From: Sclerodactyla briareus
Taxonomy: Eukaryota > Echinodermata > Holothuroidea > Dendrochirotida > Sclerodactylidae
DNA length: 64,000 bases
Direction of reading: 5' to 3'
NCBI GenBank assembly: GCA_026419785.1
Contig: JAODTK010001710.1
Span: 1 to 64,000 of the forward strand
The position numbers and the translations under genes are program-made. Positions within the stretch are counted from its first letter, which is position 1; each line of letters begins with the position of its first letter. Shown here piece by piece: positions 6,323-57,300 of this stretch. The notes under the pieces were generated by a model that saw only the letters and a program-made list of their open reading frames with translations, made no database searches and was not told the DNA's origin.

Positions 6323-7360
6323 TTGTTGGTAATTGCAACATTCACATTTTCCAGTTGCATACATATGACTCAATCATTGACTCCTATGAAAATGTGGAGT
6401 CGATATACAGAGGCAACGGCAGCGGCTGCTACAGAAATTCGGCTGATAGTGATAAAGTGGTTTCAGGCCCTTCGGCTCGGAAGACCTAAAGACAGCAATC
6501 CAGGCCATGAAATGGCAACTACAAAATCTCGAATCGAAGGTTGGGCTGCAAACGAACTGCGGCCTGCACAAGGGTGGTTGAGTGAGGAGACTGATCATCT
6601 AGATCAACAAATAAGTGACTTACTAAAAACCCCAGAGTGACACAGAGACTGGCTCTGTGTTGTCAGTCGAGTTTAATAAAGCTGATGTCGTGCTTAATAG
6701 TGTAATCGCCGACCTGATAAGGATAACTATGTTGGGGCTCCAGTTACCGGAAAACCTAGCAAACTTAGTGCAGGGATTATGCTCAGAAGGGCTTGTTGAA
6801 GCCGAAATGAAAGAAAAACTGGCCGTGTATTTCCGTCCGTCGAACGTTCAACTCCTTGAGACAAACAAACGTTAACAAGATTGTCTTTTTTGCATCTGCA
6901 ACTTCATACAAGGACTAATGATATTGGATTGCAGAAGCTACAACTCTACAACATAAAGGGCATGATCGGACCTCACTATCTCCTGAATGACGTTGTCAAC
7001 TCTCAAACCCTGGAGAAACCATCACTAGTGACAAAGGTAACGGACGCATTGGCTTTTCTTACAGCGGCGAATAAAAGCCTGAATTTGTTCCGCAGAGAAC
7101 TCATTAGGCCTGAGTTGAAGCGCGAGTTCCAGGGGCTATGTGCAAAATCAGTGCCCATAACAGGGGAGTTGTTTTGTTTGGGGACAATGTTTCGCAAACT
7201 GTGACAGAGCTGTCAGACGCACAGAAAGTCAGTAGGCAGTGTCTTCAATCGAGCGTTTTGAGCATTAGACCCGTTAGAAGAGGTGGTCCTCTATCGTGGA
7301 CGCGGACGTGGACGTGGTTTTGCGAGATTCCGGCCTTACGGGCAGCGACCTTTTTTTAGC
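6323..7360 (+). pseudogene. DIRS gag-like ORF remnant
   Basis: Translated pieces include a DLLKTPE-like stretch (~6610-6640), SVEFNKADVVLNSVIADLIR (~6660-6720), LQKLQLYNIKG (~6930-6960), VTDALAFLTAANKSLNLFRRELIRPELKREFQGLCAKS (~7035-7150, given here only as the landmark order DALAFL, RR.LIRPELK, LC) and a LFGDNVSQTVTEL block (~7170-7210). An arginine/glycine tract RGRGRGRGF with RFRPYGQRPFF follows to 7355. The DALA..A/RR..IKP/LC/LFGD signature and RG-rich tail are typical of the nucleic-acid-binding gag of DIRS elements. At least three frame changes are needed. The reading ends where the inserted repeat begins, with its hairpin at 7358. The start codon is uncertain; in-frame similarity may begin as early as ~6070. 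Confidence 0.72.
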
Positions 7361-7376
7361 TGCGGGGTAAGCAGCT
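7358..7376. other. Terminal hairpin of inserted element
   Basis: Perfect inverted repeat AGCTGC ... GCAGCT with a 7-nt loop, immediately after the T run that ends the gag reading. Its position at the element edge resembles a Helitron-type 3' hairpin, but no CTRR end was confirmed. Confidence 0.55.
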
Positions 7377-7407
7377 CTTAAAAAAGTCATCCTGTCTCTC
7401 CGTCCGT

Positions 7408-7482
7408 CGTTCGTTCGTTCGTTCGTTCGTTCGTTCGTTCGTTCGTTCGTTCGTTAGTTCATTCGTTCGTTCTTTCTGTTCG
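7408..7482. repeat. (TTCG)n microsatellite
   Basis: About 17 near-perfect TTCG units. Related CGTCCGTTCG tracts occur in the other copies of this repeat element at 15440-15475 (as CGAA), 41254-41275 and 56693-56715. Confidence 0.85.
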
Positions 7483-8399
7483 TCACGTTCATTCCTAACT
7501 TCTGAACCGCACATCGATCAGGGTTGAACTTGGTGGGTGGATGAAGCATGCCACTGGCTAGGCTGAGTTACATTCTTGTTTGCATAGTGCGATGAAATTT
7601 TAATTAAATGCAATTAATTACGCCAATAAGTCTTTCATCGAATTCTGATGAAAAGTACATGCAATAATGTTGAAACGTGGGGTGGATGAAGCATGCCACT
7701 GGATAGGCTGGAGTTACATTAATTGTTTTCGGCATAGTGTGATTAGATTTCAATCAAATCCAATTAATTACCCCAATTTCCAACTCCCATTGAGCTAGCT
7801 CCTGTGACAGTGTGAGAGAGGTTTGTTTACATTACTTCATCCCTCTGCGGACCAGTGTTGACCTTATATGTCAGAAGGGTCCGGTATGCCAGCCTAGTTG
7901 ACAATAAAACCTATTGTCCAGGGGGAAATGATTTTTCTCTCAACACTCGCTCTAGACCCAGAAAGAGAGTTGTTTTCACATCGTGAGTTCTGTTGGGTGG
8001 GCTATATGTAGTAATATACACAGGCCTAGGAATGATTTAGTGACGTAACTTGATGCAAGTATTAGGCCAATGTGGTAGACATGTTCCAAGCCATTCCAAG
8101 ATTGTGACAGATGTCAGTAAAGTCAATAAATGTGAACCTCAAAACAATAAATGAGGATTGGTGAAGAACATGCAGTGTATTCGCCACAGGAATTTTGCCG
8201 TCGGCAGATATCAAGACGTTTCGACGCTTGTTCTATTAAGAGGAGTGTCACGACGGCCTCCATACAACAAGAAGAACAGCATAAACCAGTAATGAAAGGT
8301 GAGGTATGTCATGTTTCCGTTATAAAATCTTTTGGAGCCATGGGTGGCCGAATAATTTTTTTTATACCATTAGGAAAAAATACTACAGGATAATTTTCA

Positions 8400-10110
8400 T
8401 TTTACAAAAGTTGCTGGCTATAATATTGAATTTACAGACTGCGATGTGCCTGTTAACAATACTATGTGTAGTAAAGTCAACAGCTCGAAAATAGAACAAG
8501 ACTTAATCGATAAAGAAATTGTGAAGCTTGTAGACAAAACTTTTTTTAGAGCATGTTGGTCTACTGAGGGGGGTACGTATCTCCTATTTTTCTTCGCCCC
8601 AAAAAAGATGGTACTTACGCGAATGCTTTTAAAATTTGAAAAATTTATTCCTAGGTACAGTACATCAATTTCAGGAATGGATAGCCTACAGGAGGCTGCG
8701 GTTATGAACAGAAGGTTCTACAATGGCGCCATATATTTTAACGGATGCCCACTACTCAGTTCCTATTGCTCTATCCATCGGAATTTTGAAACTCAGATTG
8801 GAAAGAAAATTTATTCATTTACATGTGTTACCAAATGTTTTGGCATCAGCACCCGGGATTTTTACTAAGCTGCCCAAACCAGTTTGCTGTTTAACGCTGT
8901 TAGGGTCTTCCTCGCTTGGGCACATTGCTACTCATTTTTTTTCCAACATAGAACCTTATCAAGGGTGTGTAATACTATCGAGAGGTGTGACCCTCTTTCA
9001 AAGCTGGTTTTCGTTGTGTCACCAAAAAACGTCTGTTGCAAACACCACCCAAACGCTTTGGTTTCTTGGGTTCCTTCTCGATTCAAAGAATATGACAGTA
9101 CGCCTAACAGGAGAAAAGTATTTCCGGTTTGTACAGGAATTGCGTAAATTCCGAGTTCGGAAAGTTGTCCAACAATTCGGGAACTAGCTCGCTTATTGTC
9201 GGAATGTTTCTTTGGTTCGCCATGTGTTCAATTTGTAAACTTTTTATCGTTGTCTTGAGGTTGTTTCGATAGTGATGTTGACGTTTCTGAAAATGCAGTC
9301 ACTGATATGGTGGATATCAATCTACTCTATTCATACATGCCTATCAATATTAAAGCACATGATTTTCTATGTATACTGGATGCTTCACAAAAAGGCTGGG
9401 GGGGGGGCATTTTGTGAAACAGTCGATGCTAAATCGGCTGGTGGATGGTCTTCCAGTGAAGTTTCAATTCCCCACAATATTTGGAGCAAATGGCCAATTT
9501 ACTGGGCCTCCAGACGTTATGTTCAAGGTTCCGAAATAAACACATTCGGGTGAAGTAATAACTCCACAGCATTATCGTATATCAAGCTATGTGGTAGCAC
9601 TCTTCTGAGTGGGCACAAGTGACAAAACTTATATGGCTTGGTGTATGGAGAGATGAGTCTGGCTCTCCTGCAGTTGTTTCTCCGGTAGAAGCGATACACA
9701 GCTGATACTTTATCACGAAATTTAACAAATACAGCGTGGATTGTTGAATCCAACATTTTCCTCCCCAATTACACATATTGGGGATTACCAAACTTGACTG
9801 TTTGCTACAAGTTCTAATAAACAACTTCTAACCTTTGTTTCTCGGAAGCAAGATGACACTTACAGTGTCCTCTTTTATGCGTTTCCTCCTTTCAGCATGT
9901 TCGGAGGTCGTGCCGCCCAGAAAATTCGCCAGGATCAAGCAAGGGGGCTCCTATATTTCCGACTGGCCGACACAAGTCTGGTGTCTCTTAACTTCTGGAC
10001 TGACCCTGCATATGCCAAAGTCCTGCCACAGCAAGACCCTAATCACACTCCGGGAAGCAAACGAGTTCATCTGAAGGCCCAAAGCCCCAGGCTTGTGGCT
10101 TGCCTCTTGA
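8400..10110 (+). pseudogene. DIRS reverse transcriptase/RNase H remnant
   Basis: Order of landmarks on the plus strand: VAGYNIEFTDCDVP (~8410-8450), KIEQDLIDKEIVKLVDK (~8490-8540), FFAPKK (~8595-8615), a HFKM..LQEA-like piece (~8660-8700), DAHYSVPIALS (8745-8780), LPNVLASAPGIFTKLPKPVCC (8830-8890, DIRS RT core), LWFLGFLLDSKNMTVRLTGEKYF (9055-9125 in pieces), then RNase H with LDASQKGWGGAFCE (9375-9420), an ST-ALSYI piece (~9550-9590) and LVACLL near 10090. KIRQDQARGLL and WPTQVW (9910-9990) are the conserved C-terminal block of DIRS pol. Together these identify an RT that copies RNA and an RNase H of the DIRS group. The YIDD catalytic box is not intact, and frames change repeatedly. Confidence 0.8.
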
Positions 10111-10169
10111 TCCGGAAACCCTACACAGAACGTTTTCGTGTCAAACAACAGATATTATACTCCCCTCAT

Positions 10170-11075
10170 TGCGTAGAGCCCCAGAAACTTCTTACCCAGC
10201 GACGGATGGGCCGCCTTTTGCGATCCAAAGGATTTTGCTCGTTTTCCCCTTTTGTAGAATGTTCTAGAAGTCCTAACAGCCCTGGTTAAGCCGTTTAGGG
10301 TATAATGCTTTGAACTCGGCTCGTATGCTATTTCAGCCCTAGTTTCGTACAATGAGAGGCTGACAATAGTATCACATCCTCTTGGTATCTCGCTTTAAGA
10401 GGGGGTCTTTGAGCTTCGATCGCCACAAACTCATATGCCATATTGGACGTATCCGTTGTACGTGGTCACTTACGTACTACATCCGTCCATATGTGGCCTT
10501 GAGGGACCTCACTGCATTTAACTTATGGCTTATAGCACCTGGTTTTCAGCAAAATGGATGCAACTATCTCCATGCTCTTGAATTTGCGATTTCCACCAGC
10601 ACAACAGATACGCTTCATGAACCTTTTGTATCGAAGATAGTGGCAACCGTGACCTGGTGTACGAATGAGGCCAGTATAGGGAAGGCGTGGAAAAGAGAAC
10701 CTTGAAACATCCACCCACTGGCAGAAAGCAACTCAAGTTATGTTGGAAGATTTTTCTCACGATGAACGTTTGAGTGTATTTCATGTTAAAAGGGGTATTT
10801 AGATTTCCAGCAGACTGCGGAAGCGAGCATGTATTATTTATCAGTGATGTTAAACCCAGCAAGGGTGCTAAGAGTCCCTTAGCAAGATGGACTAAGGAAG
10901 TAACTGGGCAGCTGCCGTATAGTGATATTAGTTTCTATAAAGCTCACAGCACTCGAGAGCTGCTGTTTCGCTGCATCAAGCAATAGTTTACCAGAGATAC
11001 TATACTTGGGATGTGGCTGGAGTTCGGAAAAACCAGAAACCAAAAGGCTTAGTGTTCCTTGACTGTTTCTGTCAA
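10170..11075 (+). pseudogene. DIRS tyrosine recombinase remnant
   Basis: After the pol C-terminus, the plus strand reads GLGYNALNSAR and a HPLVSRF.RG block (near 10300-10400), then WDVSVV and LTLHLTYGLIAL-like pieces (~10440-10550), and finally LFISDVKPSKG (10830-10865), ARWTKEVTGQ (10885-10915) and YKAHSTRELL (10935-10965). The last carries the H-x-x-R catalytic signature of tyrosine recombinases. A LPEIL/WSSEKT-like tail follows to ~11070. This enzyme would integrate the circular cDNA. Multiple stops and frame changes show that it is inactive. The catalytic tyrosine could not be placed with certainty. Confidence 0.72.
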
Positions 11076-13474
11076 CCCATACCCCAGACACACGGACAAA
11101 GGGGAGATATTACCCAGCTCATTATAGTCAACAAAGTCTACAATTTCCTATCTTTCCAACCAACTAATAGGGTTCCTGTACCCTTGGTAGAAAGCTACAC
11201 ACTAAATTTCAAGTTTTCATACTTTGACGTCTGGTTACCTTGATGACCTCCGACCTTGACCCCCAAACATAGGGTTCATTGTACTCATCATGGGGAATAC
11301 ACAACCAAGTATGAGCCCATTCACCCCGCCCTTAACCAAAACCAAAACCAAAGGGTTCATGTACCCCCATAAGGAAGATCCACCCTAATTTCAACCCTGA
11401 TCAGACCACCGTTCTGGAAATTATCGTGTTTACAAGGTTTTCAAGACTTTGACCTCGTGTGACCTCAGATGACCTCTGGGACCTGACCCCCCAAACAATA
11501 GGGTTCAAATATACTCAGCATGGGGAACAAACATACCAGTATGAGCTTCATCCATCCAGGTGGGGTAATATTCATGTTTACAAGCCAAAATTGTCCAAAA
11601 TACGAATTTCACACAATTTTTCCATTTCGATTCGACAAAATTCAAATTCACTCCCGACCTGAACAAAAACAATAGGGTTCCTGTACGCCCCATAAGAAAG
11701 CTATACCACCTGATTTCACTGATCAGTACCAACCATTCTGGACATATCGGTACAAGGTTTTCCTACTTTACCTTGGTGACTCTCAGATACCTCTGACCCG
11801 ACCCCAAAACAATAGGGTTCATGTACTCATCATGGGGAAGACACATACCAAGTATGAGCTTCATCCATCCAGTGGGTCAGTTCATCCGTGTCAAGCCAAA
11901 ATTGGCCAAAATGTCGAATTTTCACAAATTTTCTTTTTCGAAAACCAAAATTCATTCCGGACCTGAACCAAAACAATAGGTTCCTGTACTCCCATAAAAA
12001 AGTTTACACCTAATTTCAACTTGATATCATACAAAAATAATGGACTTATCGTGTTTACAAGTTTTCAGACTTTGACCTCTAGTGACCTCAGATAACCTCT
12101 GGCCTGACCCCAAAACAATAGGGTTCGTATACACTCATCATTGGGAACAACTAACCAAGTATGGAGCTTCAATCATCCAGGTGGGGTTCAAGTTATCATG
12201 GTTTTACAACCAAAATGGGCCAAAATCAAATTTTCATACAAATTTTCCATTTTCGACCAAAAGCCACTCCCGACTCTGAACCAAAAACACTAGGTTCCTG
12301 TACTCCCCATAATAAGTCTATACACCTATGTCAGCACTTGAGCAGACCAACCATTCTGGACAGATCGTGGTTTACAAGGTTTTCAGACTTTGGGACCTCT
12401 GGTGACCTCAATGACCTCGGACCCGACCCCAAAACAATGGGTTCATGTACTCATCATGGGGACACACACTAACAGTATGAGCTTCATCCATCCGGTGGGG
12501 TCAAGTTATCGTGTTTACACAAGCCAAAATTGCCAAATGTCGAATTTTCAGCACAAATTTCCTTTTTCGACCAAATTTCATTCCTGACCTGAACCAAAAC
12601 ATTAGGGTTCTGTACTCCATAAGAAAGCTTTACACCTATTTCAAACTTGATCAGACCAACAATTATGGTCTTATCGTATTTACAAGTGTTTTCAGCCTTT
12701 GACCTCTGGTGACCTCAGATGACCCTGACCTGACCCAAAAATAGGTTCGTATACTCATCATTGGGACCGAACATACCAGTACTGAGCTTCATCCAATCCA
12801 GGTGGGGTCAAGTACCCATGTTTCAACAAATTGGTCAAAAATCAAATTGGGTCACAAATTTGCATTTTCGACCAAAATCCTCCCCTTCACTCCGACCTGA
12901 ACCAAAAACACTAGGTTTCCTGTTCTCCCCATCAAGAAAGCTATACACCTAATTAATTTCAACTTGATCAGACCCCATTTTGGACTTATCGTGTTTACAA
13001 GGTTTTCAAGACCTTGACCTCTTGTTCCTCAGATGACCTCTGACCCGAACCCCAAACCATAGGGTTCATGTACTCATCATGGGGAACACAACATACCAAG
13101 TATGAGCTTCATTCATCCGATGAGGGTCCGAGTGATCGTGTTTACAAGGCCAAATTGGAATTGGCCAAATATCGAATTTTTTCACAAATTTTTTTTTTCG
13201 ACCAAATTCACTCCTGACCTGAACCAAAACAATAGGTTCCTGTACTCCCCTCAGAAAGCTATACACGGATTTTCACTTGATCAACCAACCATTCTGGACT
13301 ATCGTGTTTACAAGGTTTTCAGACTTTGACCTCTGTGACCTCAGATGACCAAAATCCACCCCAACCTTACCCACAAACAATAGGGTTCATGTACTCATCA
13401 TGGGGAACCATCATTACCAAGTATGAGCTTAACCTACCCAGACCTGATCAAGTTAATGTGTTTACATGCTGGGC

Positions 13475-13537
13475 GTCACCACACACACACACACACCACC
13501 TCACACACACCCACTCACACACACACACACACACACA
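13475..13537. repeat. CA microsatellite at the end of the satellite array
   Basis: Near-perfect CACACA tract directly after GGGCGTCAC and followed by CGAACGTAACTGCCATAG. The same GCGTCA-CA junction occurs in the copies at 34078, 45545 (inverted) and 55142. Confidence 0.85.
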
Positions 13538-13556
13538 CGAACGTAACTGCCATAGA

Positions 13557-13578
13557 TTCCTCTGACTTCGTCAAGGAA
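13557..13578. other. Terminal hairpin of the CA-type element
   Basis: Inverted repeat around the core GACTTCGTC, with flanking TTCCT and AAGGAA arms and a TTC loop. The same structure is at 55172-55192. It is degraded at 34215-34235 and 51951-51971, and half-deleted at 45411-45424. Confidence 0.7.
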
Positions 13579-13928
13579 AAAAACATTCGCACAGTTTTAT
13601 AACAAGCCAGTCATTAAGTCTCAATCAAGCATTGCTGCAATTGTTTTAGTTCTCCTTAGGGAAAGTACACAGGATCATTAGGGAGTTCAAGTACTTTACT
13701 ACTGTGTATCCTTTTCATTTTGTTAAATAGGGACGATTGTAAAAGTTTTTTTTTCGACAGTGCTCCGTGCCAAGTTGTCTCTGTTGAAAAGTCCAAATGG
13801 GTCGAATGAAAATGCAAGAGAAACTCATTAAAAACCACGTTCATGTGTGTTTTTCAAATGGTCAGCGCCATCTTTGAATCTCATGGAATCACTAGCTTTG
13901 CATGATGGGAAGTAATAATCTCAAAATG
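13579..13928. other. No recognised gene
   Basis: Non-coding spacer between the satellite-like array and the fold-back MITE. No motif was recognised. Confidence 0.4.
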
Positions 13929-14166
13929 AAACGAGACTTACCTGTAAGGTGAAGTTTGATTGGGATTATACTGACCATCAATGCAACGTTTTGAGGGATT
14001 ACATGCCCTCCTCTGTTAATTAAGTAATACCCGCCCTTCTGCTAATGCGGGTGTCGCTGCCCATATCTTTAGAATGAAGCCAGACCACTTGTCATCCCTC
14101 ACGTTGCATGGATGGTCAACTCACTATTATCCCAATCAAACTTCACCTACAGTTAAGTCTCGTTTA
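13929..14166. mobile_element. Fold-back MITE with ~75 bp inverted arms
   Basis: The left arm (13929-14006) begins ACGAGACTTACCTGTAAGGT and continues through GAAGTTTGATTGGGATTATA to CATCAATGCAACGTTTTGAGG. The right arm (14090-14166) is its reverse complement with few changes, ending in TTAAGTCTCGTTT. The centre (14007-14089) contains a small GC-rich hairpin around ACCCGC...GCGGGT. There is no coding capacity. The long terminal inverted repeats and ~238 bp length fit a non-autonomous DNA transposon. The superfamily is not assigned because a target-site duplication is not clear. Confidence 0.75.
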
Positions 14167-14194
14167 ATTTTAGTTCTCTGCATCACGTATGTTG

Positions 14195-15379: not shown

Positions 15380-15515
15380 AAAGGTATAAACTTTCAACCT
15401 GATCGCATGTACGGTTTGGGAGTTATGAATGAACGTGACGAACAGAACGGACGGAAGAACGAACGAACGGACGGAGAGACACGGACTTGTAGGTGCTCTC
15501 CCGCAGCAAAAAAAG
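15380..15515 (+). mobile_element. Partial copy of the CGAA-type repeat element (end module)
   Basis: This is the reverse complement of 7358-7530 in layout: GTACGGTTTGGGAGTTATG, GAATGAACGTGACGAACAGA, a CGGACGGAA/CGAACGAA tract, GAGAGACACGGACTTGTAGG, a weak hairpin ending CCCGCAGC and an A run. The internal ~145 bp units are missing or unrecognisable upstream. Confidence 0.6.
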
Positions 15516-15699: not shown

Positions 15700-16830
15700 C
15701 CCGCTATTGTCATTTTGAGTCTGGTCTATTAGTCCGGCAGAACCGTAGGTAAACCTGGAAATTTTGTCATATAGTTTTTTCTTGAATGATTTCTATAGTT
15801 TGAAGAAGGGTGCCTCTTTCAGATGCTACCGGATGACCATCGGGTCACCCCTCTGAGCGTGTTTGGTATCCAAGATGGTGTCCACAATGGGGCGCCCATA
15901 CATATTTTTCCCATTAAAAAGCCCCATTCAGCATTGAATGATACTGTGGTGTCCTTAGCATGTTTGGAAATTAGGCATCAACTCAAGCTGTCGCAGTTAA
16001 ATGTATGCGGAAGTCTAGTGAATACGTGGACAATACATCCAAGTATGGCTCCACAACATATGTCCCTTCAAGCCCCCATATGATTAGTAAATTATTTTCC
16101 CAACATATTTTGGCATAACCCCGTAAGTTTAATTCAACCAAAAACGATGATTATGGTGTCTATTGCTATGTTTCGGGGCCAAAGAAAAACCACTCAAACT
16201 GCTGGTGATTCTTTGTGATCACATGGCAGTAATAAACTCCAGATGTTTCAAAATCGGCCACATGATAACATATTCTTCTAAAAAGAAAAACAAAAAAGAT
16301 TCTTATGTCAATAGATAATAATGTGTCCTATTGGTAATGTTTTGGTCAGGCAATCTACAACTGTGAAAGAACGGAGTCCAATTTCGGGAACCTACATAAT
16401 TTCTGGGCAAATTGACGCGTGATTTGGGCAACAATTTTACCTACACATTTTTTGGTAGGTTCCCTCCCACACCCATCCTTGGTCGAGCTTTGATCGTCTA
16501 TTTACAGGTTAGTCATTTTTGTGTGCCACAGAATCCATGTGCCATATAAATCCATTATACGTTAAAAATGGCCCAATTATAATATTTGTATCTATATAAA
16601 ATTTTCCATTCAACCATGGATGATCCTGTGGTTCCTATTGGTATTTCGGGTCCCGAGCAATTGTTTCAATCCGTACACAGCGTTTAGGTGCTACGAGAAA
16701 ATCCTGTTGCCCCTGTATCATTATTAAGCTTTCATGCTCAATATGATTAGTGGTCATTTTGGACGCTATTTTGATTTTTGAACGGTGATTCTACGTCACC
16801 CAATATGGTCGCAAGAATTTGAAACTATTG
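15700..16830 (+). repeat. Repeat element with 5' hairpin module and degenerate ~150-205 bp units
   Basis: The module at 15715-15860 (AGTCCGGCAG, ACCTGGAAATTTTGTCATAT, TTTGAAGAAGGGTGC.TCTTTCAGAT, then GGGTCACCC) matches the reverse complement of 21700-21860. Units with GTGTC.TATTGGTATGTTT follow near 15943, 16148, 16318 and 16621. Translation (15823-16083, 86 codons) is an accident of the repeat, since the paired copy gives a similar but unconserved frame. No protein is supported. Confidence 0.65.
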
Positions 16831-17899
16831 GAATTGATAACACTACTTGTCAGGGAGATTCTAATTGTTCGCGCTGTCGACCACCGCAGGGCTGTCAGTC
16901 CGACGCCGCGGGAACAACGTGCGTGAGATAAGTGCCGACGCCAGCAGTATTTGGATGGGTGATGAGCTGATGATGGGCATTTTGGTTTGGTTACTATAGC
17001 ATCTATCTCTCGGCATTAAGTGATGCAATCTCTCTATGTTTGGTGCCCGGACGGGTTTCAGTGCAGTGTCAGATGAAACCTAGAGTTGATTTCGCATAAA
17101 GTTAACAACAATGCTATAATATCAATGAGTGGTAACCTAACGTAACTTCCTAAATCCTATTGATTCTGTAAGCCGGGAGGCGCGCTATTGGCCAGAGGTA
17201 CGCGGTGACAATCAAGAATCCGGGAGCGACACTTTTCAGCTTTCCCCCCCGAAAAAAAATACCCTGAAACACGTAGATCGGAAAATTGCTGGAAGCCAGA
17301 TCATCTGAAGTAAACAACAACTACTTTCAGGACATCAATCACGGGAGCTTATTGCCGAAAAGCAGAACGGACACGATAGTTGCATAGATTACATTTCTGA
17401 CTAGTTTTGGAAGTCTTCAGCGGAGGGAGATGATGCTAGTGTGTGGGAGGAGGAACATTGTGGGGTGTTTTTCCCAACATATTTTATTTTACTCGTCCTT
17501 GCTTCTTGATATGTCGCATAACATTGTAAAGTCTGAAGAAGTATTTGGCGACCACTGGGTAATGATATGGTATTCATATCACGCACTGAAATAGGGTCGA
17601 TTCATGACGTCAAGAGGACATGTTTCGAAGCACTCCTATTAGGCCAGGCAAGTACAATAAATGTACCAGAAATACCTATGTGAAAATGTAGAGAAAAACG
17701 GAGGACATCTTTGAAATATTGTCACGTGATCCCCATAACTCCAGGCTGCGTGGCTTGAATATAGTATGTGCTCCCGGAACATGTCTTGTAGACATAATCA
17801 TTGTTTTTTTTCTATGGGTCCCTAGTGTTTTTGCTGTCAATATAAACGTTTTTGGGGAGAAGAAACTGTTATTGCCGACGATACACAACGATTTGTAGT
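16831..17899. other. No recognised gene
   Basis: Contains GC-rich patches (16880-16920 and 17160-17210) and a CCAACATATTTTATTTTACT fragment near 17474 that resembles the preceding repeat family. No ORF with a recognisable motif. Confidence 0.35.
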
Positions 17900-18272: not shown

Positions 18273-19470
18273 TTTAGTTTCAGTTTAGTTTAGTGAAAAA
18301 GGGTCAGGACGACAAAATCCTCATGAGAGACCCCGAAGCAGCCACAACATCCCAAAAGAGAAGAACAACTCAGATGCTCAAAGAATTCGCCCACAATTCT
18401 TGAAAAATAATCAAGACTGTTCTTGAATGCATTCACACTCTTAGACAGGACAACATCTTCAGGAAGCTATTCCACTCATTTATAACTCTCTGGAGAGGAA
18501 GTATTCAGAATGTCCAATCTACAGCGTTCACCACGAAGCTTGAGACGATGGCCCCTATTGGTGGTAACTTTGGAAAACTCAAAGAAATAGATGGAAGGAA
18601 AGGCCCTCAAAACCATGAACAATTTTAAAACCTGAATCAAATCACCACGAATTCGTCTCAGTTCCATCGAAGTTAGACCGAGCCGCCTTAATCTCTCCGT
18701 TGTGTGGGTAAATTCTCAGAGATTGAAATACTTAAGTGGCCCTCTGCTGAACGTTTTCAATACCTGCTTGTCTTTCGAGAAATATGGATTCCATACTTGG
18801 ACAGAACACTCCTGGTGAGGTCTATCAACAGCCTGACAACAAATCGTGATCAGGGTAACTGAAGTGACGTCTAATCAAGCCAAGAAATTGAATCCAGTTA
18901 CCTTCCTCGCAGCTTCAGCACACGTTAGAAGGTTTCAAAGAAGAATAAAAATGAACACCGAGATCCCTCTCTGAATTCACATGATGAATATTTGCCCATT
19001 TAACTTGAAGAAGCGTCGCGATTGTGGAAACCAATCATGCATAACTTTGCACTTACGGCATTGAAAAACATTTGCCAATCGAAAGACCATTTGGAGCTTA
19101 TATCAAGATCCTTTTCGACAATTGCAACATCATCGTTCGAAGCAACCTCCCGTTACAAATTAGTAAAGTCTGCAAACTTTGGAATGCACAGAATCTTCCA
19201 GATCGTTAATATACGCCAGAAAAAGTAAAGGCCCAAGAACTGATCTTGAGGACACCACTAGTGACCTTTCGCCAAGGAGACGAAAGCCATTGATGACAAC
19301 TCGTTTTTCCCTATTGAGAAACCACTGACGAATCCACTCAAGGACATTCCCCTTGATGCCTCTTTAAACAAGAGACGCTCACGAGGAACCTTATCAAAAG
19401 CTTTTTGGAAAGTCTAGGAAAATTATATTAACAGCACTGCCGTTGTCAACTGTGCTAGTAACATCTTCCA

Positions 19471-19569
19471 TAAAAATAAATAAATAAATAAATAAATAAT
19501 AAATAAATAAATAAATAAATAAATTAAATAAATAAATAAATAAATAAATAAATTAAATAAATAAATAAA
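19471..19569. repeat. (AAAT)n microsatellite inside LINE copy 2
   Basis: About 24 AAAT/TAAA units that interrupt the RT palm region, so they arose after or during decay of the element. Confidence 0.9.
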
Positions 19570-20648: not shown

Positions 20649-20667
20649 TGAAATACATTATCCACTG

Positions 20668-21160
20668 AAATAATGAAATTGCAGTGCAATCAGAACTCCG
20701 CCGCTATACTAACACTGGCAAGTCTAAACGTTCAAGCATATAAGCTCTTTGTTGCAGCACTTCCATTGGCTCCCTGTTGAACATAGAGTTATTTCCAAGG
20801 TTCTCCTTGTTGTTTTTCGGTGCTCTCACCACAGGTTCCCCCCCCCCCCCATCGTATAATCATGGGTTTGTTATGTTCATATCAACCCTCCAGACGTCTA
20901 CGTAGCTCTGGCAAAAATCTCCTCGTCATTCCATCCACCCGTACAAAAGCCTACGGTGATCAGTCTGTCAGTAAATTTGCTTCTCTTCACGGAATGCTCT
21001 TCCCGTCTGTCAGAAGTACGGAGGTCCCTCTCTTCAATCAAAGCTGAAAGCACACCTCTTCAAAAAGGCTTTTTCGTGATCTGTAGTCCTATTTTTTGGA
21101 AAGCGTTTCAGATCGTTGCTTTTTGTGAGTTGTATTCAGCGCTATATAAATGCACCATTA
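20668..21160 (+). mobile_element. L2-like LINE, 3' part of the interrupted copy
   Basis: The plus strand resumes with KLQCNQNSAAILT (~20676-20715), then LHWLPVEHRVISKVLLVVF (20762-20818), a PSRRLRSSGKNLLVIPSTRTKAYGD block (~20888-20960, read in two pieces), and a SSIKAESTPLQKGF / KTHLFKKAF-like end (~21040-21075). GCGCTATATAAATGC is followed by an ATT microsatellite, the usual 3' tail of this LINE group. Together with 17900-18272 it forms one copy. Confidence 0.82.
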
Positions 21161-21254
21161 TTATTATTATTTTATTATTATATTATTATTATATTATTAT
21201 TATATTATTATTATTATTATTATTATTAATAATAATAATATAATAATAATAATA

Positions 21255-21298
<44 letters not shown>

Positions 21299-21308
21299 TA
21301 CTAACATA

Positions 21309-21349
<41 letters not shown>

Positions 21350-21355
21350 CATTAT
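21156..21355. repeat. (ATT)n / (AAT)n microsatellite
   Basis: A TTA run, a switch to AAT in the middle (about 21226-21300), then TTA again. The two phases are complementary, so the tract could fold back on itself. It is the expanded 3' tail of the preceding LINE. Confidence 0.9.
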
Positions 21356-21359
21356 TCGG

Positions 21360-34236: not shown

Positions 34237-34502
34237 AAGAAAAAGGACATAGAAAATCGCTTTCACAAAGGCAATTGTGAAAAAGTCTTGTTCAGATTCA
34301 TTAAGATGAAAAAAGAGTATACCAAAAGCGTATACATGACCTGGACCAGCATGCAGCTGAAACACCTAAGGTTCACGCCTTCGTTTCATCCCGTGTTGAT
34401 AAAAACTGGTTAACAGTTTGCAAAACGTTTTGCTGGGGGGAAAATATCTCACCCCTTCTTCGCCATCTACAACGGCTTCATGTGAAAACAACGCATCAAC
34501 TT

Positions 34503-44095: not shown

Positions 44096-45410
44096 ACTGA
44101 TTTAACTGCAGAATGGATCATTACTCTTCTCTTATGTTTATCATCACTACACTTTTCAATTGTACTCCGCTAAGAGGTAATGTAATCCTAAAATGATAAT
44201 CAATGGAGCATACCAGGAACTTGTGCTATTCTGATACTAGATCCTAGGTCTTAGATCTATATATGTTCGAATGCCTGTCTGTTATATTCATCTGTCTGTC
44301 TGTCCATGTCTATCTGTCTAATTGTGTGACTAAATTTGGTCACTTGTTCATCCACCATCGTGGCATCTTGAGCACTACATGGTCATAGTCAAATGTCAAT
44401 AAAAAATAATGATGGCCGATTATGTGAAAACTTGCAAAAGGTATTTGCGCCCACAGACCTCCTGTCTGCTTGCCAACCTATATTTACTTCCTTGGCTCCA
44501 AAATGTTTATTCTTCGTCAGAAGTTACCAGAAGTTGGACACGATTTTTTATTGAATGCTGGACATCCTTAACCACTCTATCCGAGACCATAAAACATATC
44601 TCCTACATACAAGGTGGCAATTAGATTTTTGGGAGCAAAGCACTATCCGGCTACTCCTCCCTGTAAACAGAATTCTAATACAAAGTCATCTGATGTTGAT
44701 AAAGGTAAAAAGTTACATCAGGCCGAACGTGTATTACATTACCACACTTTTTTTTTAGGAACACATTTTTTCGTATAATTCCGAGTATTTAAAATTGCCC
44801 TTACTGATAATGCCATATATGCCTGTCACTATATCTGAATATCTTCGCAGCCTATTACCCTGCAGCTGGTAGAGTAATCCAACAACTAAATGGTTACTCG
44901 TTTTGTTGTGCGAATATCCTGAAACTACTAACGGTAAAAGTTGCCCTGGCGATTATGGGTGTTTAGAGATATATTAGAGATCTGGTATCTCAGAGAAATT
45001 CCTGTTTTTTATATTTTGTTTGTAGAATAGGGATGACGCGTTATTTACGGACTATCGTTTCATGGACAGTCTCGACTCACTGAAACGTCAGCGAGGCAAC
45101 GGGCTTGATATGTCGGAAGGCTAAGATATGAGTGTGACAACCCATCAGGCGTTATTGTGCACACATGCTATGATCATTTACCTCGGTGGTGAACGCTCTA
45201 TTCCGTAGTATGGACGCAGAGGATTAGACCACTAAAACAGCCTGATTATATTTGTGTTCAAGAATTCCGTTAAGTTTTGCCATTGCAGTTGCCTGGAATT
45301 CCATTTAGTTTTTTAGTTACATTATGCCTGTTTTATATGTAGACTCCCATCTAATTATTCAGTTATATTTTTAATTCCATTTTTTTCAGTTATATGTTCT
45401 ACAATTCTGT
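44096..45410. other. No recognised gene
   Basis: AT-rich. Frames of 71 and 67 codons (44409-44758) show no motif. Confidence 0.4.
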
Positions 45411-45463
45411 TTCCTTGACGAAGTAAATCATACAGCCTGGGATTGAAATGTGTGTGTGTGCGC

Positions 45464-45544
<81 letters not shown>

Positions 45545-46240: not shown

Positions 46241-47229
46241 TGAGCCATTTCGACAAGCGCAGTTGGCAGTCAAACCCACTTATTGACTATTAAATTCAAA
46301 TTGACTTGAGCGAATTCAGGAGATATTAGCAAACAAGACAGCACATTGCATTTATATTATCAATGTTGATGTCAAATTTCTGCAGTGTCTCCCACCTAAG
46401 TTTTAGGATCTTCCTGTGGATTTTTTTCCTGTGCGGTCTTGAACTTGCTCCTAGAGCGAGTCCCCCCTGGTCCCAACAGCCGATTCTCAAAGTCCTTCTA
46501 AATCGGTCTAGAGACCAAGACCATACTCCCGTCCTCCAACACTGATTCATCCTCCGGTGGCACACCACAGATATCCATGTTAACAAGCTTTTTTCAGGCC
46601 TTGACTCGACACTGAATATCTCGACTCGACCCTTGTTATATCGGTTGAGAATGGAAAACTGTATCTATTTTTTGGTCCAACCCCATTCAATGACATGTTC
46701 CTCCTGTTGAGTTAGTGGCCTTCAAAGTTTGGGTCACTGGGCAGAGAATTGGGGGAAATCCCAATTGCACAATAAGTCGCATGACGTCGCAACTTGGACA
46801 ACCCCGAAGTTATGTCCAGTTTTCTGTTGAATTAGTCAACATTTAGCAGAAGTTCTGTTGTCCTTCTCTTTCCGAGTAACCATCAACACCTTACCAACCC
46901 ACCAAACAGCATCCTCATCCCCAGACTAAATGCTTTTCGAAGTGAATAATGTTGTGAATTTCTTCTTCGGTGAGCTGCCCAACATCCCGCCAGGACAAAC
47001 GAGCAGGGATGGGTTGCGTGGTGAACATAGTTAAATCAGTCCAAACTAGAAAATGTCGGGCGGGTAAACCGCCAGACGTATATACCCCTCACCTCTTATT
47101 CAAGAAATTTGTTGAACTGAACCGACAATATTGTGGAAAGAAGACAGTAACTTGTGAAGCGACAACGTGTACAGGTAAATGGTTCATCCATAATGCCCTT
47201 GTAATTGTAGGAGGCACATTTTCCAAGAT
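46241..47229. other. No recognised gene
   Basis: Frames of 60-129 codons without motifs. The longest (46970-47359) runs into the tandem array, which argues against a gene. Confidence 0.4.
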
Positions 47230-49440
47230 TTGCCCTTTACCCACCTGGCCACCCGACGAGGTCAAATTCATTTCAGAGGTCCACACATGGCAGGTCACAA
47301 TTAATATCACAATGGTGAAACCATTCCGCCTTCGCAGATATTCAATTTTCCGATTATAGCCAAAAAACAGTTTTGACCCCTAAGTGACCTCGAATGACCT
47401 TTAATGATATGACAAGTTTTTATGAAAATTGTTACTCTCCATGTGATACATCCACTCCTAGGAGCATTTTGCATTCTGATGAACACACCCAGTGCTATTG
47501 CCGAAAAGTACTAAAATCAGTTTTTGACCCTCAAGTGACCTTTAATGACCTTCAATGACATGGCGGTTTTTATGAAAATTGTTACACTCCATGTTATGCA
47601 TCCACTCTTAGAAACATATGCGTCCCAGGAAAAATGTCAAATGTTATTGCGAAAAAGGTATAAATTGAACTTTGACCCCTTGTAACTACCAAAGTAATTG
47701 TCCGATCGAAGCGGAGTTGTTTCTCTCCATAAGCACACAACGTCTATCACATATCCAAAACTAACCAGTATCAGATTTTTTTGCCCGTAACTCCTTACAT
47801 AAGCACCTTTATTCAAATTCGACCTTTAACCACTTGACAACCCGACAGAGGTCAAATTCAGGTCAGAGGTCACACACATGCAGGTCAACAATTATATCAC
47901 AATGGTGAACCATCCACCTTCGCAGATATTCAATTTTCCGATTATAGCCAAAAAACAGTTTTGACCCCTAAGTGACCTCGAATGACCTTTAATGATATGA
48001 CAGATATTATGAAAATTGTTACTCTCCATGTGATACATCCACTCCTAGGAGCATTTTGCATTCTGATGAACACACCCAGTGCTATTGCCGAAAAGTACTA
48101 AAATCAGTTTTTGACCCTCAAGTGACCTTAATGACCTTCAATGACATAGCGTTTTTTATGAAATTTTACACTCCATGTTATGCATCCACTCCTAAAGCAT
48201 ATTGCAGTCCAATGCACATGTCCATGTTATTGCGAAAAAGGTATAAATTGAACTTTGACCACTTCTAACTACCAAAGTAATTGTCCGATCGAAGCGGAGT
48301 TGTTTCTCTCCATAAGCACACAACGTCTATCACATATCCAAAACTAACCAGTATCAGATTTTTTTGCCCGTAACTCCTTACATAAGCACCTTTATTCAAA
48401 TTCGACCTTTAACCCAATGACCACCCGACAGAGTCAAATTCAGGTCAAGGTCACACCATGCAGGCCAACAATCATATAGCAATGGTGAACCATCCACCTT
48501 CGCATATATTCAATTTTCCGATATAGCCAAAAACAGTTTTTTTGACCCCTAAGTGCCTCGAATGACCTTTAATGATATGAACGTTTTTATGAACATTGTA
48601 CTCTCCATGTTGATCATCCACTCCTCATACAGGAGCATTTTGCATTCTGATGACACCCCCCAGTGCAATGGCCGAAAAAGTACTAAAATCATTTTTGACC
48701 CTCCCGTGACCTTTATGACCTTCAATGCACATAGCGTTTTTATATGAAAATTGTTCACTCCATGTTATGATGCATCCCTGCCTAGAACATCGTGCAAGTC
48801 TCACTGAACATGTCCAATGTTATTGCGAAAAAGTCTAAAAATTGGAACTTTGACCCCTTGTAACTCCAATAGTAAGTGTCGATCGAAGGCGGGAGTTGGT
48901 TCTCTCCATAAACACTACACAAAGCTCAAGCACATAACCAAAAATACCGGTTTCTATTTTTTGCCCGTAACTAACTCCTTAAAATAAACATCACATTTAT
49001 TCAAGATTCGACCTTTAAAACCACATGACCACCCACAGAGGTCACATTCAGGTCAGAGGTCCACACACATGCAGTCACAATGATAATCACAATGTGAAAT
49101 CCATCCAGCCTTCCGATCTTTCAATTTTCCGATTATAGTCCAACACACAGTTTTTGCCCCTAGTGAACCGCGAATGACCTTTAATTAAAGACAGTTATTT
49201 TGAAATTTGTTACTCTCCCTGTGACTAACAAAAAAAAAAACATCCACTCCTAGGAGATTTTTCATTCAGTGCTATTGCCGAACAAAGTACGAAAATCAGT
49301 TTTTGACCCCTAGTGACCTTAATGACCTTCATGACATGGCGGTTTTTGATTAAAATTGTTACACTCCATGTCATCAATCACTCCTAAGCTATTGGCATCC
49401 AATTAACATGACCAATGTTATTGCGCAAAAAGTATTAAAC
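47230..49440 (+). repeat. ~588 bp higher-order tandem array built of four ~147 bp units
   Basis: TTTTGACCCCTAAGTGACCT recurs near 47372, 47960, ~48540 and ~49155 (588, ~580, ~615 bp). Inside one period, GACC-starting units lie at 47375, 47526, 47674, 47821 and 47963, steps of 151, 148, 147 and 142 bp. Units 1 and 2 are clearly related (TTTTTATGAAAATTGTTAC, CTCCATGTKATRCATCCACTC). Units 3 and 4 are more distant. Copies become noisier towards the right, with many single-base indels. No coding capacity. Confidence 0.82.
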
Positions 49441-50165
49441 TCATCATTTTGACTGATCAGGACGACTAATATGCAAATTAGTCCCACAAATTTACCTCAG
49501 TGATTTGATGCTATTGATTAACTTTATCAGGACTGGTAGTATCCTATTCACCAATTTCGTCAAAATCCCTAAAAGTTTAGAAATAAGTGCATAATTTTCC
49601 ATTATGCTAACGAATAGTAAATTAAGCACACATAATGACCTTCAGTGATTTCAACGCAATTTGAATAATTTATCGGGTACGTTTAGAAGGTCCTACTCAC
49701 CAAGTTTCGTGAGAATCCTACAAAGTTTATAAATTTGCCTATTGCTAATTGGGGGCCAACTATTATGCAAATAGTCATGAGATGACCTCCAGTGACCTCG
49801 GCCACATTAGGAAAATCATCACCTTGATAGTTGCCCTATTCACCACTTTCATGGAAATCACACTGAAGTTTGAATATCACATACATTATGCTATAATTAG
49901 GCTAACTTGCCAAAAAACTGCAAACTTGACCTCGGATGACCTTGAAATTGGTCGGCCATGTTTTTCGGCTCCAACAACTACCCCACAACCACACGTTTCG
50001 TGTAAATCGCCGAATTTGAAATTTTGCGAAAAACCCGCAAAATACCAACCAACATAGGATATAGCCCATTTTCGAACTTACCCTAGATTTTCCTCCATCG
50101 GACATTTGTACCAAGTTTTGGGTCCAATTGGATAAGTGTTAAGAATGAGAGCGCTAACGCCTAAA
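49441..50165 (+). repeat. ~146 bp tandem units continuing the array
   Basis: CACCAAGTTTCGTGAGAATCC-like motifs lie near 49543, 49691, 49833 and 49981 (148, 142, 148 bp), with TGACCTCCAGTGACCTCGG at 49783-49801 and TATGCAAAT words. This is the same family as 1985-2400. It leads into GAGAGCGCTAACGCC and the terminal CGG tract. Confidence 0.75.
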
Positions 50166-50244
50166 GTTTCCGGCGGCGGCGGCGGAGACGCGGGCACACG
50201 TCAAAACCATAATATCCCCGAACACTTCCCGTGTTTGCGGGGAT
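50166..50244 (+). mobile_element. CGG tract and terminal hairpin of the 47.2-50.24 kb element
   Basis: After GCTAACGCC come (CGG)n (50172-50184), GAGACGCGGGCACACGTCAA, AACCATAAT and an imperfect hairpin ATCCCCG-AACAC / GTGTT-TG-CGGGGAT (50214-50244). The order of repeats, microsatellite and hairpin is the same as in the CA-type and CGAA-type elements. Confidence 0.6.
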
Positions 50245-50249
50245 CTCAT

Positions 50250-51975: not shown

Positions 51976-52009
51976 GTTAGACATCCCTAGAAATGGTTGG
52001 TCCTTTTTG

Positions 52010-52520
52010 ACTCGCGTTTGAACCTGAATGAGTCACATGTGGCATGAATTTTCCTTCCCTGATGGTCGTCACAAAGCGATCTGATGTGTATCACTTTTGA
52101 ACCTGAGTACTACATGTTTATAAATTTATCTGGATGGTCATCACAAAGCTGGATCTGATGTGTGTCCTCACATGTGTAAAATTTCCCTGACGTATTCACA
52201 AAGCTGAATCTGATGTCGTCTTTTGAACCTGAAGTGACTCACATGTGCAAAATTATCTAGATGGTCAGTCCCAAAGCTGGATCTGATGTGTGTCACACAG
52301 TGCAAAACTTTCCTGAATGGTAGTCACAAACGCTTATCTATGGTGTCCTTTTTAACCTTAAGTGACTCACAATGTTTGCATACATTTCCCTTAATGGTTC
52401 AGTCACAAAAGCTGCATCTGATGTGTCATTTTTTACCTGATGTAACGCACATGTGCATAAATTTCCCCTAATGGTCAGTCACAATGCCTGAATTGGAGGT
52501 GTGTCATTTTCACTGACTTT
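52010..52520 (+). repeat. ~75 bp minisatellite
   Basis: Units of the form TTTTGAACCTGAAGTGACTC, ACATGTGCAAAATTTCCCTG, AATGGTCAGTCACAAAGCTG, ATCTGATGTGTGTCA repeat about seven times. CTGATGTG lies near 52081, 52158, 52283 and 52420. At least two units (near 52160 and 52285) lack the central TTTTGAACCTGAAGT part. Confidence 0.8.
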
Positions 52521-53760: not shown

Positions 53761-54349
53761 CAACTTGGCAATTGGCGGGTTGGATGTTGCAGTTGAGCTC
53801 TCTGAATGACCTCATCCATGTCTGGGGCAATTGATTGCTTTCTGCTGACTCTGTGGTTTAAGTTATATCGTACCGGTTGATCTAGCAAGACACTAACCTT
53901 CTCGAGTCAGAGTTTTGTTTTCTCTGCCTGACAAAAGTTTCTACCGTAGGATTTTGTTACGTCCTCAGGAGAGCACTGTGAAATGCTAACAATCTTAAAG
54001 GCCAGTGTTCATGTCACTATGACGTGTACTTTTGGTACGTTTAGGTTTATTACATTTTATTAGACACCATCCCTGACCAATCAGCCAATCTCCAAGTCCA
54101 CCAATACGCACGACCAGCTATTGCTTTGCACAATTTATTGGCAAATGGGCTGCGATGTCACAGGTGACGCAACAAATCCCTGCTAGTAACCAGAAAGTCC
54201 GAAGGCTTAGTGATTCCTTGACCTCTTTCCTGACAACCTATGGTCGTCCACCTAACTGATTGCAGAATTTACCAGCTTACTGTGAGCACTTATGATATGT
54301 CTGACAAATTTCTCACTTTCCACACAATGTGATGCTCTCTTGATCAAAA
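53761..54349. other. No recognised gene
   Basis: No motif or repeat recognised. Confidence 0.4.
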
Positions 54350-55192
54350 TTGGTTTCCTGTACTCTTAATAAAAAGCTTCACACTAAATGTTCAGACTTG
54401 ACCTATGGTGACCTCATATTACCTGACTCCTGGGGGTAAAACCAATCAAAATCAACAGGGATGATGTACTCATTGTGGGGAACACACATACGCAATATGG
54501 GTTCATCCATCCAATTTAAGTTAGTTTACCATGTTACAAGCCAAAATTGGGCAAAGTATCGACTATTCACAATTTTCAATTTCCTCCCAAAACATTCAAC
54601 CCACCTCAACATTAAGGTTCCTGTACTCCCCATAAGAAGCTACCAACAAATTTCAACCTGATCAACTGACTACATTCCTGGCCTACATGTTTACAGGTTT
54701 CAAACTTTGACCTCAGATGACATTGACCTGACCCCAAAACATCAAGGGATCCTGTACTCATTATGGGGAACCCATAGCTCAATTACGAACTTGACCACCA
54801 AGGTGGTTGAGTTATCGTGTTACGAGCTAAAATTGACCAAATATCAATTTTTCACAATTCCCAATTTTTCCCGAATCTGACCCCCAAACTACATTACAAA
54901 CAATAAGGTTCCTGTCACTACACCAACAACCCGGAAGCTGCACACTAGATTCAACCTGATCAAACCAGGTATTCTGGACTTATTGCGTTAACAAGATTTG
55001 TCAAACTTTGACCTCTCTTGACCTCAGAGACCTTTGACCTGACCCCAAAACAATAGCTCATGTCTCATCATGGGGAACCTTATACAAAGTATGAATTGAT
55101 CCATCCCAGCGGGGTCGCGTTTATCGGTTTAACAAGACTCAGCGTCACACACACACTGTCAACTGCATAGTTTCCTCGACTTCGTCAAGGAA
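54350..55192 (+). repeat. CA-type repeat element, third long copy
   Basis: Half-unit starts near 54357, 54460, 54616, 54742, 54903 and 55050 alternate between B-like (CCTGTACTCCCCATAAGAAG) and A-like (GATGTACTCATTGTGGGG) forms. The end has AGACTCAGCGTCACACACAC (55135-55154), only ~6 CA units, CTGTCAACTGCATAG and the best-preserved terminal hairpin (55172-55192). Confidence 0.8.
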
Positions 55193-56689
55193 TCAAAAAG
55201 TTTAATGTTGAAGATGCACTTCCAAATCCAGTAACAAATCAACTTCAATGGGCTCCGAATAAAAACCTACAAAATCGTTCCCAAATATTGAAGAAACACC
55301 CCTTCTTTCCAATGATTTAACTATTTTTTGTATTTCTGTTATCAAGCACTAACATACAGCATTACCTCTAGAGTCCAGGGCAGTCTTTGCTTCTTACCTC
55401 TGTGATGTCAGATTCCTCAAAGTAAATTGAACTAACTTGACAAGACAACATGCAAAACCTCAAAATTGAGGTATCCAGTTTCGATATGCCCTCTTTCCAC
55501 CTTCGCTAGTTTAAAGGGATCTTGTTACCTACCGTTGGCCCTCAAATTCACCTCCAAAAATTTTAGGCTCCACATTGAGAGAATTAGTAAGAAAAAAAAA
55601 AGGCCTAGTAGTTTTTCCTACTTTTATTCACGTGTCCCTCTTGCCTCTTATGCGTATACTCGTAAGGTATGGCTCTATCAGTTCAGTTGGGTATCCCCTT
55701 GCCTCGTACGAAGTGGCGTTCCTTTGGCTGCGCCGGCTGCAGAGAAGAGAGGCTCAGAAAAGGAGCTCATCAGTATATTTGGAGTAAAGAGTGCTAATAA
55801 TCATGATAGGTTTGGGAGATCTGCTAAGGGGAAGCGGTAGGTGTAGAAACAACATGATTGAGTAGGGTTCACTGTCTACAGATTCCAGGTGACAATTTTT
55901 CAGATCACATTTGAAGTGATAATGACCTAGCATGCATACCAATATTTACTCTGATGGAACCTATCGCCATCTGCCCTAAAAAGGCAAGTTACACGACTTG
56001 ATAAGCACACGATACTAAAAGCACACTGGAAGGCTCGTATGGAGAAGTTAATATAACGATAGCTTAAATAAATAGGTCTCTAACCCCGAGACTTGAAGAT
56101 TAAACCGTGCTCAGCCGCCTAATATCACGCGGAAGGGCATCCCATAAACTTTGGGCAAGCCGCGCTGAATGACGCTTGGGACTTGTTGTAAGGAAATTCC
56201 ATAAGTATGCCCTTTGGAAGACCTGGTAAGTGTTTTTTGGAGATTCCATACAACAGCTCTTTTAATTATACAGGCGCAGATATGACAGCACCTGGAAACG
56301 TGACGTAATCTTGTATCCTGTACGGGCCTCTGACAGGCAGATATACCGTTCCCTCACATCACTTCGGATAATGGAACTCATATTTATGTGGAATTATCTC
56401 CTTACCATAACCATAGTTCCTTCTACTGCCACCCCTCTCTCCCATCAAATCCAATTCTCGGGGCCTGACTTAACCTTATTTTTCACATTGTCCTGAATGT
56501 TAAGAATTCGTATGAACAATTGTACGAACAATTAAAGGGCATTGCTGGACTAAATTACTTGCCTGACAAGTCCTGTAGGGCAAGTGTTGGGCAGTGAGAT
56601 TTCATTAAAAATTCAACATCCCTCGTTTTTAATGAGTCGAAGTGATCATTTTTAGATGCGGCCATCATCTCTACAAGTCATCAGGTCTC
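55193..56689. other. No recognised gene
   Basis: Two overlapping plus frames (55466-55840, 124 codons; 55575-55787) carry no motif I recognise. The stretch 56085-56340 resembles a degraded interspersed repeat. Confidence 0.35.
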
Positions 56690-57300
56690 TCCTCCGTTCG
56701 TCCGTTAGTTTTTTCCCTTCTGTTCCGTCACGTTCATTCATAATTCTAAACCGTACATGGGATCATGTTGAATTTGGGTAGTGGGATGAACTTGCTACCG
56801 GCTAGCCTTAGCTACATTTATGTTTGCATAGTGTTTTTAGATTTACTATATCCAATTAATTACCCAATTTCCAACTTTAATTTCAGCTCTCTGACTGCAA
56901 GAGAAGTTTGTTTACATTACTCCATCCTCTGCGAGCAGTGTTTACCTTTATCTTTCCAGAAGGTCCAGGTCTGCGCCCCCACCTAAATGCTGTTTAATGT
57001 ACCTTGTGTACCATGTCCGATATTCATTGTCTTGGGAAGTGTGTTTCCACTGTTCCCTGCCACAGGCTTCAGAATGAGTGTGCTGCTACTTGTGTTGCGG
57101 CGGCAACTGATACTGATAGCAAATATTAGGCCCAGTGGTCGACATGTTCCAAGTCATTCCATGGGATGACAGAGTGTCAGTAGAGGTCAGTTAAAGTGAC
57201 AAACAAGAAATGTGAAATGACTGAAAATGCAGTGTATTCGCCATGGAAGTTTTGCTGGTCCGCACACTACCACACGTTTCCGACTTGCACTTGTTATGTT
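56690..57300 (-). mobile_element. CGAA-type repeat element, second copy
   Basis: CAAGTCATCAGGTCTCTCCT, CCGTTCGTCCGTTAG, TCCGTCACGTTCATTCATAA, CCGTACATGGGATCATG, GTGGGATGAACTTGCTACCG and CCAATTAATTACCCAATTTC match 7390-7790 in order. TCGACATGTTCCAAGTCATT ... AATGCAGTGTATTCGCCATG matches 8070-8190. Only one ~145 bp unit is present and the microsatellite is short. It confirms that 7358-8245 is a mobile unit. Confidence 0.7.

Follow-up and report, generated by a model that had tools for sequence, protein, structure and literature searches.

Four repeat families in a stretch of the genome of the holothuroid Sclerodactyla briareus (contig JAODTK010001710.1, positions 1 to 64,000, or C1687:1-64000; this whole stretch of 64,000 nucleotides is called the window) are very probably non-autonomous mobile elements of three kinds, as judged by their ends, and each carries an internal tandem array. 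Two families, CA and CGAA, are HINE-like (HINEs being non-autonomous, Helentron-associated elements), the CGG family has canonical Helitron ends, and the fourth (family 4) has inverted ends. One point is unusual: an internal array period of about 145-170 bp recurs across all three types of end.

Ends of the CA and CGAA Families

The CA family was read from the window and 20 loci (L009-L028) taken from the best genome matches; the genome searched comprised 319.5 Mb in 3171 contigs. Copies differ by many single-base insertions and deletions, which blur both ends and reading frames. Pattern matching, with weak matches included, gave 37 5' ends and 26 3' ends, from which 24 pairs of 555-4807 bp were formed; L010 has two 5' ends without a 3' end. 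Read in element sense, the order is TTTTT, GATTCCTTGAC, GAA, GTCAGAGGAATC, (TG)n, the units, GTCAAGGAATC, ACT, the palindrome AAGCCTTTTGGCTT, and TCTGGTT. Consensus support is about 0.7-0.9 inside the boundaries, compared to 0.2-0.6 outside, at both ends. The consensus subterminal inverted repeats (subTIRs), GATTCCTTGAC and GTCAAGGAATC, are complementary at 11/11 positions, and in 19 of 24 elements the 3' end holds the reverse complement of the first 11 nt within two edits, as does the 3' flank in one of 24. Directly before the 5' subTIR stands a run of at least three T in 21/24 elements (exactly five in 13/24). An exact 5 bp stem of the palindrome follows the 3' subTIR in 12 of 24, compared to a mean of 1.9 and a maximum of 6 in 200 shuffles.

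Target duplication was not detected at the CA junctions in a permutation test of the 24 paired elements, where the length of the junction words did not exceed that of permuted pairs (the observed mean was reached in 72 and 187 of 500 permutations). The CA family thus has a subTIR pair, a 3' palindrome, and a T-rich target without target duplication, which are three of the features by which HINEs were judged here.

Besides the window, the CGAA sample took in two copies elsewhere on its contig and ten other loci, and all of these together gave 14 paired elements of 642-1940 bp. The consensus starts with TTTTT, a T-run ahead of the 5' end, and AGCTGCGGGAGAGCAGCTCTACAAGTCATC, and it ends with GGAATTTTGCTGTCCGCAGCTACCAAGACGTTCCGACTTGCACTTGTT. 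Within four edits, the 15-nt 5' subTIR is complementary to the 3' end of the same element in 11/14 elements and to the 3' flank in 0/14. The 3' palindrome reads CAAG-a-CG-ttc-CG-a-CTTG, with one internal mismatch, and its consensus is approached within three edits in 11 of the 14 (a count made without a shuffle control). Both the subTIR pair and the 3' palindrome of HINEs are therefore found in CGAA. Both window copies are decayed, so their reading as HINE-like rests on their relatives.

The end patterns of CA and CGAA occur more often than expected by chance: with strict cut-offs, four CA and four CGAA 5' ends were found in 184 kb of the contig, compared to none in each of ten first-order Markov shuffles. 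A search of 38 flank joins (24 CA and 14 CGAA) against 340 kb of sequence gave spanning matches for five, three of them elsewhere and two (L013 and L016) self-hits from an adjacent second element. One empty site corresponds to the CGAA element of L044 (81% identity, target CTGTG-TTTT), and another, for the CA element of L011, lies inside another CA array (target TATTG-TTTT). Placing the 3' end of CA and CGAA at the hairpin next to the microsatellite was considered and ruled out, as the T-run, subTIR, and inverted repeat make this hairpin the 5' end.

Some CA elements are arranged head to tail, with a second 5' end directly after the CA 3' end in L013 and L016 and 22 bp further on in L009. Beside the large CA element of the window lies an imperfect 249 bp self-inverted repeat (13923-14171, 68.6% identity), perhaps a small inverted-repeat element.

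Ends of the CGG Family

Canonical Helitrons start with TC after a host A and end with CTRR before a host T, with a hairpin 10-12 nt from the 3' terminus. All nine CGG 5' ends that were read start as A/TCCC (the slash marks the element boundary), followed by a hairpin (-20.0 kcal/mol in its common form), and their flanks differ. All four 3' ends read (the window, L070, L071, and L072) have CTAG followed by T, and a stem of the GGCGG/CCGCC type stops 7-9 nt before CTAG, or 11-13 nt from the terminus; this stem is decayed in L072. The strict 3' signature occurs three times in 184 kb, compared to 0, 0, 1, 0, 0, 0, 0, 0, 0, and 2 times in ten Markov shuffles (mean 0.3). Both ends of one element are present on contig C1402, about 2.6 kb apart. 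Among the matches listed, the 5' region recurs at 39 other places at 79-85% identity; the 3'-side query likewise has 39 other places among those listed, of which three start at 47043-47044 and one at a contig edge. These ends would fit a non-autonomous, rolling-circle-like element of the canonical Helitron type.

HINEs, by comparison, have a T-run and subTIRs at both ends. A T-run was not found at the nine CGG 5' ends, and near three 3' ends the best match to the reverse complement of the first 13 nt is five edits away. A reading of CGG as a HINE is thus ruled out by its ends.

Just outside the CGG 3' end, positions 46635-46963 belong to a different high-copy repeat, which 35 of the 39 listed places match at 77-80% (4572 first-look candidates).

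Ends of Family 4

Terminal inverted repeats are a criterion of DDE transposons, and they were found in three end pairs of family 4. Seven contigs among the matches listed carry the end region in inverted pairs spaced about 3-8 kb apart; those on C2098, C3130, and C3096 span about 8 kb. The two end types of the family (A and B) share the tip GTCCGGCAGA, which is identical in L056 and near-identical in the other two pairs, and the inner inverted similarity of the three pairs is 88.5% over 87 bp, 83.7% over 135 bp, and 81.4% over 140 bp. Target duplication was not seen by eye in the three flank pairs, whose pairing was inferred from distance, and comparison with other tips by eye gave no conserved terminal hairpin. 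The longest stop-free segments of the loci L055 and L056 are 106 and 119 aa (no protein-family search was made of them). A rolling-circle reading of family 4 is unsupported, since its ends are inverted and a terminal hairpin is not conserved. In the window, a stretch of (ATT)n/(AAT)n (21157-21356) directly adjoins the family-4 array.

Internal Layout of the Four Families

An earlier note on this DNA described one architecture of units of about 145-165 bp, then a microsatellite, then a terminal hairpin. That order is borne out in the window copies of CA, CGAA, and CGG. The unit length holds for CGAA (146 bp) and approximately for family 4 (about 160-168 bp), whereas the period is 314-317 bp in CA (inner periods of about 144 and about 170 bp) and 584-589 bp in CGG (inner period 149 bp). 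The single terminal hairpin has to be modified: a hairpin does stand beside the microsatellite, but in CA and CGAA this is the 5' end, and a second palindrome lies at the other end of CA, CGAA, and CGG. Hairpins lie at copy boundaries in these three families. In family 4, positions 21844-21860, named as its hairpin, are part flank and part element tip and were not seen to be conserved. The statement that no protein is encoded agrees with the list of open reading frames (ORFs), which has none of at least 120 aa inside the elements except 46970-47359, lying across the CGG 3' end (no protein-family search of the elements was made).

Candidate Rep Protein

Helentrons are marked in Rep motif 2 by S between G and P, where Helitrons have L, according to an excerpt of PMC4067079. 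A search of the genome with the PF14214 profile gave three matches at two places (C2413:103101-103575 and C2926:127103), while 0/14 control genomes matched. On C2413 (L063, C2413:100500-103600), stop-free segments of 263 and 74 residues in different frames both match the profile. The second segment reads FVRIEFQQRGSPHAH, and IEFQQRGSPHAH from this contig, with S between G and P, was counted as Rep evidence. The 2.6 kb read upstream of this Rep had no convincing CA, CGAA, or CGG end, and a motif scan of the window and the other loci read by then gave no convincing Rep. A putative Helentron-type Rep sequence is therefore present elsewhere in the genome, and it is not tied to CA or CGAA as a partner.

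Features of the Window

The positions of the elements and their parts are given in Table 1. First-look word candidates across the genome numbered 7027 for CA, 1535 for CGAA, 2160 for the CGG 5' region, and 48 for family 4; 40 candidates were scored per family, and these first-look numbers are not copy counts.

Table 1. Mobile-element features of the window, by position.
Feature	Position	Strand	Remarks
CGAA HINE-like element	7358-8232	+	Own subTIR pairing decayed, 7 edits
TCGT microsatellite of the 7358-8232 CGAA element	7407-7483	.	
CA HINE-like element, both ends	11031-13580	-	5' end at 13580 with T-run just outside; 3' end at 11031
Tandem array of the large CA element	11340-13430	-	Period ~314
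(CA)n microsatellite of the large CA element	13480-13538	.	Adjoins the 5' end
Truncated CGAA 5' end	15389-15508	-	5' end at 15508
Family-4 element	15732-16920	+	A-type end at 15732; genome matches reach the query end at 16920, so that the far end is there or beyond
Family-4 copy	21360-21848	-	B-type end at 21848
Decayed CA element	33125-34237	-	3' end 11 edits off the pattern; subTIR 3 edits
Weak candidate CA 5' end	45409-45437	+	11 edits; a (TG)n run follows; 3' end not found
CGG element, canonical Helitron ends	47046-50244	-	5' A/TC and hairpin at 50244; 3' hairpin and CTAG/T at 47046
CGG tandem array	47214-49460	-	Period 584-589, inner period 149
CA element, both ends	54188-55194	-	5' and 3' subTIRs complementary 11/11
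CGAA element	56654-57295	+	subTIR pairing decayed, 5 edits

A further tandem array lies at 52055-52506, with a period of about 128-131 bp (and 75-80 bp). The segments 4165-5266 and 18311-19474, each about 1.1 kb long, are 65.7% alike in the same orientation. Positions 8446-9187 contain broken ORFs that resemble a retroelement by eye, without a Pfam match at 0.01. At this same cut-off, Pfam gave no match for four window ORFs; ARAGORN and Rfam found nothing in the window, and a viral-contig pattern scan also found nothing.

Discussion

Rolling-circle elements are compared here with published systems through excerpts of three papers (PMC7492417, PMC4067079, and PMC5148889), and the likenesses and differences given below are limited to what those excerpts describe. 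The terminal features of CA and CGAA fit those published for HINEs. In the oyster Crassostrea gigas, 11 Cg_HINE elements have units of 138-181 bp, several microsatellites, and T-rich targets without duplication, and some of their families are wholly unrelated to each other and have different microsatellites (PMC7492417). CA and CGAA are like them in having a 5' subTIR with a complementary inverted repeat, a microsatellite, tandem units, a 3' subTIR, and a palindrome. The families here differ from the oyster set in that CA and CGG have compound periods (about 314 and about 585 bp; the two sets were compared by description) and in that CGG and family 4 do not follow HINE ends. Short arrays of units of about 160 bp also occur in the HINE-like Pearl elements of Crassostrea virginica, DTC84, and MgE (cited in PMC7492417). 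With Helentrons, HINEs, and DINE-1 (PMC4067079), the shared traits are subTIRs, a 3' palindrome, a variable number of boundary Ts, an unmodified target, and the S mark of Rep; HINEs are tied there to autonomous partners by sequence, whereas no family is tied to one here. CGG resembles canonical Helitrons (Helitron1, PMC5148889) in its A/TC start, its CTAG/T end, and a 3' stem that stops 11-13 nt short of the terminus in the window copy and in three others (the stem being decayed in one of these four, L072), and differs from them in its strong 5' hairpin, which is listed for Helitron2.

Transposition of CA and CGAA would begin with a Helentron Rep-helicase made elsewhere in the genome, which would nick near the T-run and the 5' hairpin. 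One strand may then be peeled off by rolling-circle synthesis, with the 3' palindrome marking the stop point, and would be joined into a T-rich site whose target is not duplicated. CGG would be moved by a canonical Helitron Rep-helicase. We infer each of these steps, as well as the enzyme assigned to each family of elements.

The earlier note proposed a class of rolling-circle-like, non-autonomous elements of the HINE kind, and this proposal survives in part: CA and CGAA are HINE-like, CGG would be rolling-circle with canonical Helitron ends, and family 4 departs from the class by its inverted ends. Its suggestion that several families are mobilised by one enzyme is unsupported, since there are at least two different end types. 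Insertion without target duplication, which it set as a check, agrees with the CA junctions, although empty sites are few (three of the 38 CA and CGAA joins, one of them weak). It had also looked to a Rep-helicase flanked by the same hairpin ends, and a putative Helentron-type Rep was found, but lacking a convincing CA or CGAA end within the 2.6 kb upstream. The combination it named as contrary evidence, target duplications with terminal inverted repeats, is approached by family 4, which has the inverted ends but no duplication seen in three end pairs.

Several observations weigh against the assignment of the families by their ends. The paired elements were chosen by likeness to the end patterns, so the end-match counts are partly by construction; the pairing between the 5' and 3' ends of these elements, unlike those counts, is not. 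The cut-off for subTIR pairing is failed by 5 of 24 CA elements and by 3 of 14 CGAA elements, namely L050 (5 edits) and the two copies in the window (7 and 5 edits). The empty site for the CGAA element of L045 is weak, at 71% identity. TTAT stands right before the A in five of the nine CGG 5' ends, so that the element may actually begin a few bases outside the 5' boundary given here; distant CGG-like 5' ends at 117077 and 176244 lack A/TC, several CGG-like 3' matches lack CTAG, and an empty site was found for 0/3 CGG joins searched. The frame of the C2413 Rep is broken and its first segment has one match in the assembly, and PF14214 matches at only two places despite the large element families.

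A reading that takes all four families as HINEs mobilised by a single Helentron enzyme draws on the HINE-like ends of CA and CGAA and on the Helentron-type Rep in the genome. We consider it highly improbable, given that CGG has CTAG/T and A/TC ends, with neither a T-run nor a 3' subTIR that matches, and that family 4 has inverted ends. Even more remote is the explanation that the arrays are ordinary dispersed satellite DNA whose apparent ends are a by-product of array boundaries. Genome matches of CA are indeed dominated by unit homology, but 24 CA and 14 CGAA elements have fixed ends in a fixed order between unrelated flanks, and sharp common ends are observed outside the array.

Within the preferred reading, of three kinds of element told apart by their ends, the placement of two families has its own alternatives. 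The 5' hairpin is a Helitron2 trait in the excerpt of PMC5148889, so the Helitron branch of CGG is not certain. Hairpins at both ends of CGG, together with an asymmetric inverted repeat of which traces are seen (TATATCCCCGCA close to the 5' end and TGCGGGGATATA ahead of the 3' hairpin in L070), would suit a Helitron2-type element; CTAG/T and A/TC follow the canonical Helitron1 rule instead, and near the 3' end of three elements the first 13 nt have no reverse-complementary match closer than five edits, so a Helitron2 assignment seems unlikely. For family 4, derivation from a cut-and-paste (DDE) transposon is a serious candidate, to which we would give slightly less than an even chance. It would account for the inverted ends with the tip GTCCGGCAGA and 81.4-88.5% inner similarity, paired at about 3-8 kb on seven contigs; opposed to it are the flanks, where inspection of three pairs by eye showed no target duplication, and the lack of a known transposase, the L055 and L056 segments being at most 119 aa.

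Oyster Cg_HINEs already show this layout in print, in families that are unrelated to one another and differ in their microsatellites (excerpt of PMC7492417). Beyond that oyster set, this genome has two HINE-like families alongside a family with canonical-Helitron ends and an inverted-end family whose inner array is similar. The arrays of about 145-170 bp, accompanied by a private microsatellite in the three rolling-circle families, might have arisen convergently inside different element kinds. This would argue for a process or constraint on the host side that acts on array period, and not for common descent or one enzyme; we offer this tentatively and regard it as doubtful.

Look-alike array-carrying repeats of one genome can be different kinds of transposon, so ends, and not inner layout, must decide their class. 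Should the arrays prove convergent, one could test directly in this genome why a period of about 150 bp keeps appearing in elements that are unrelated and may give rise to satellite DNA.

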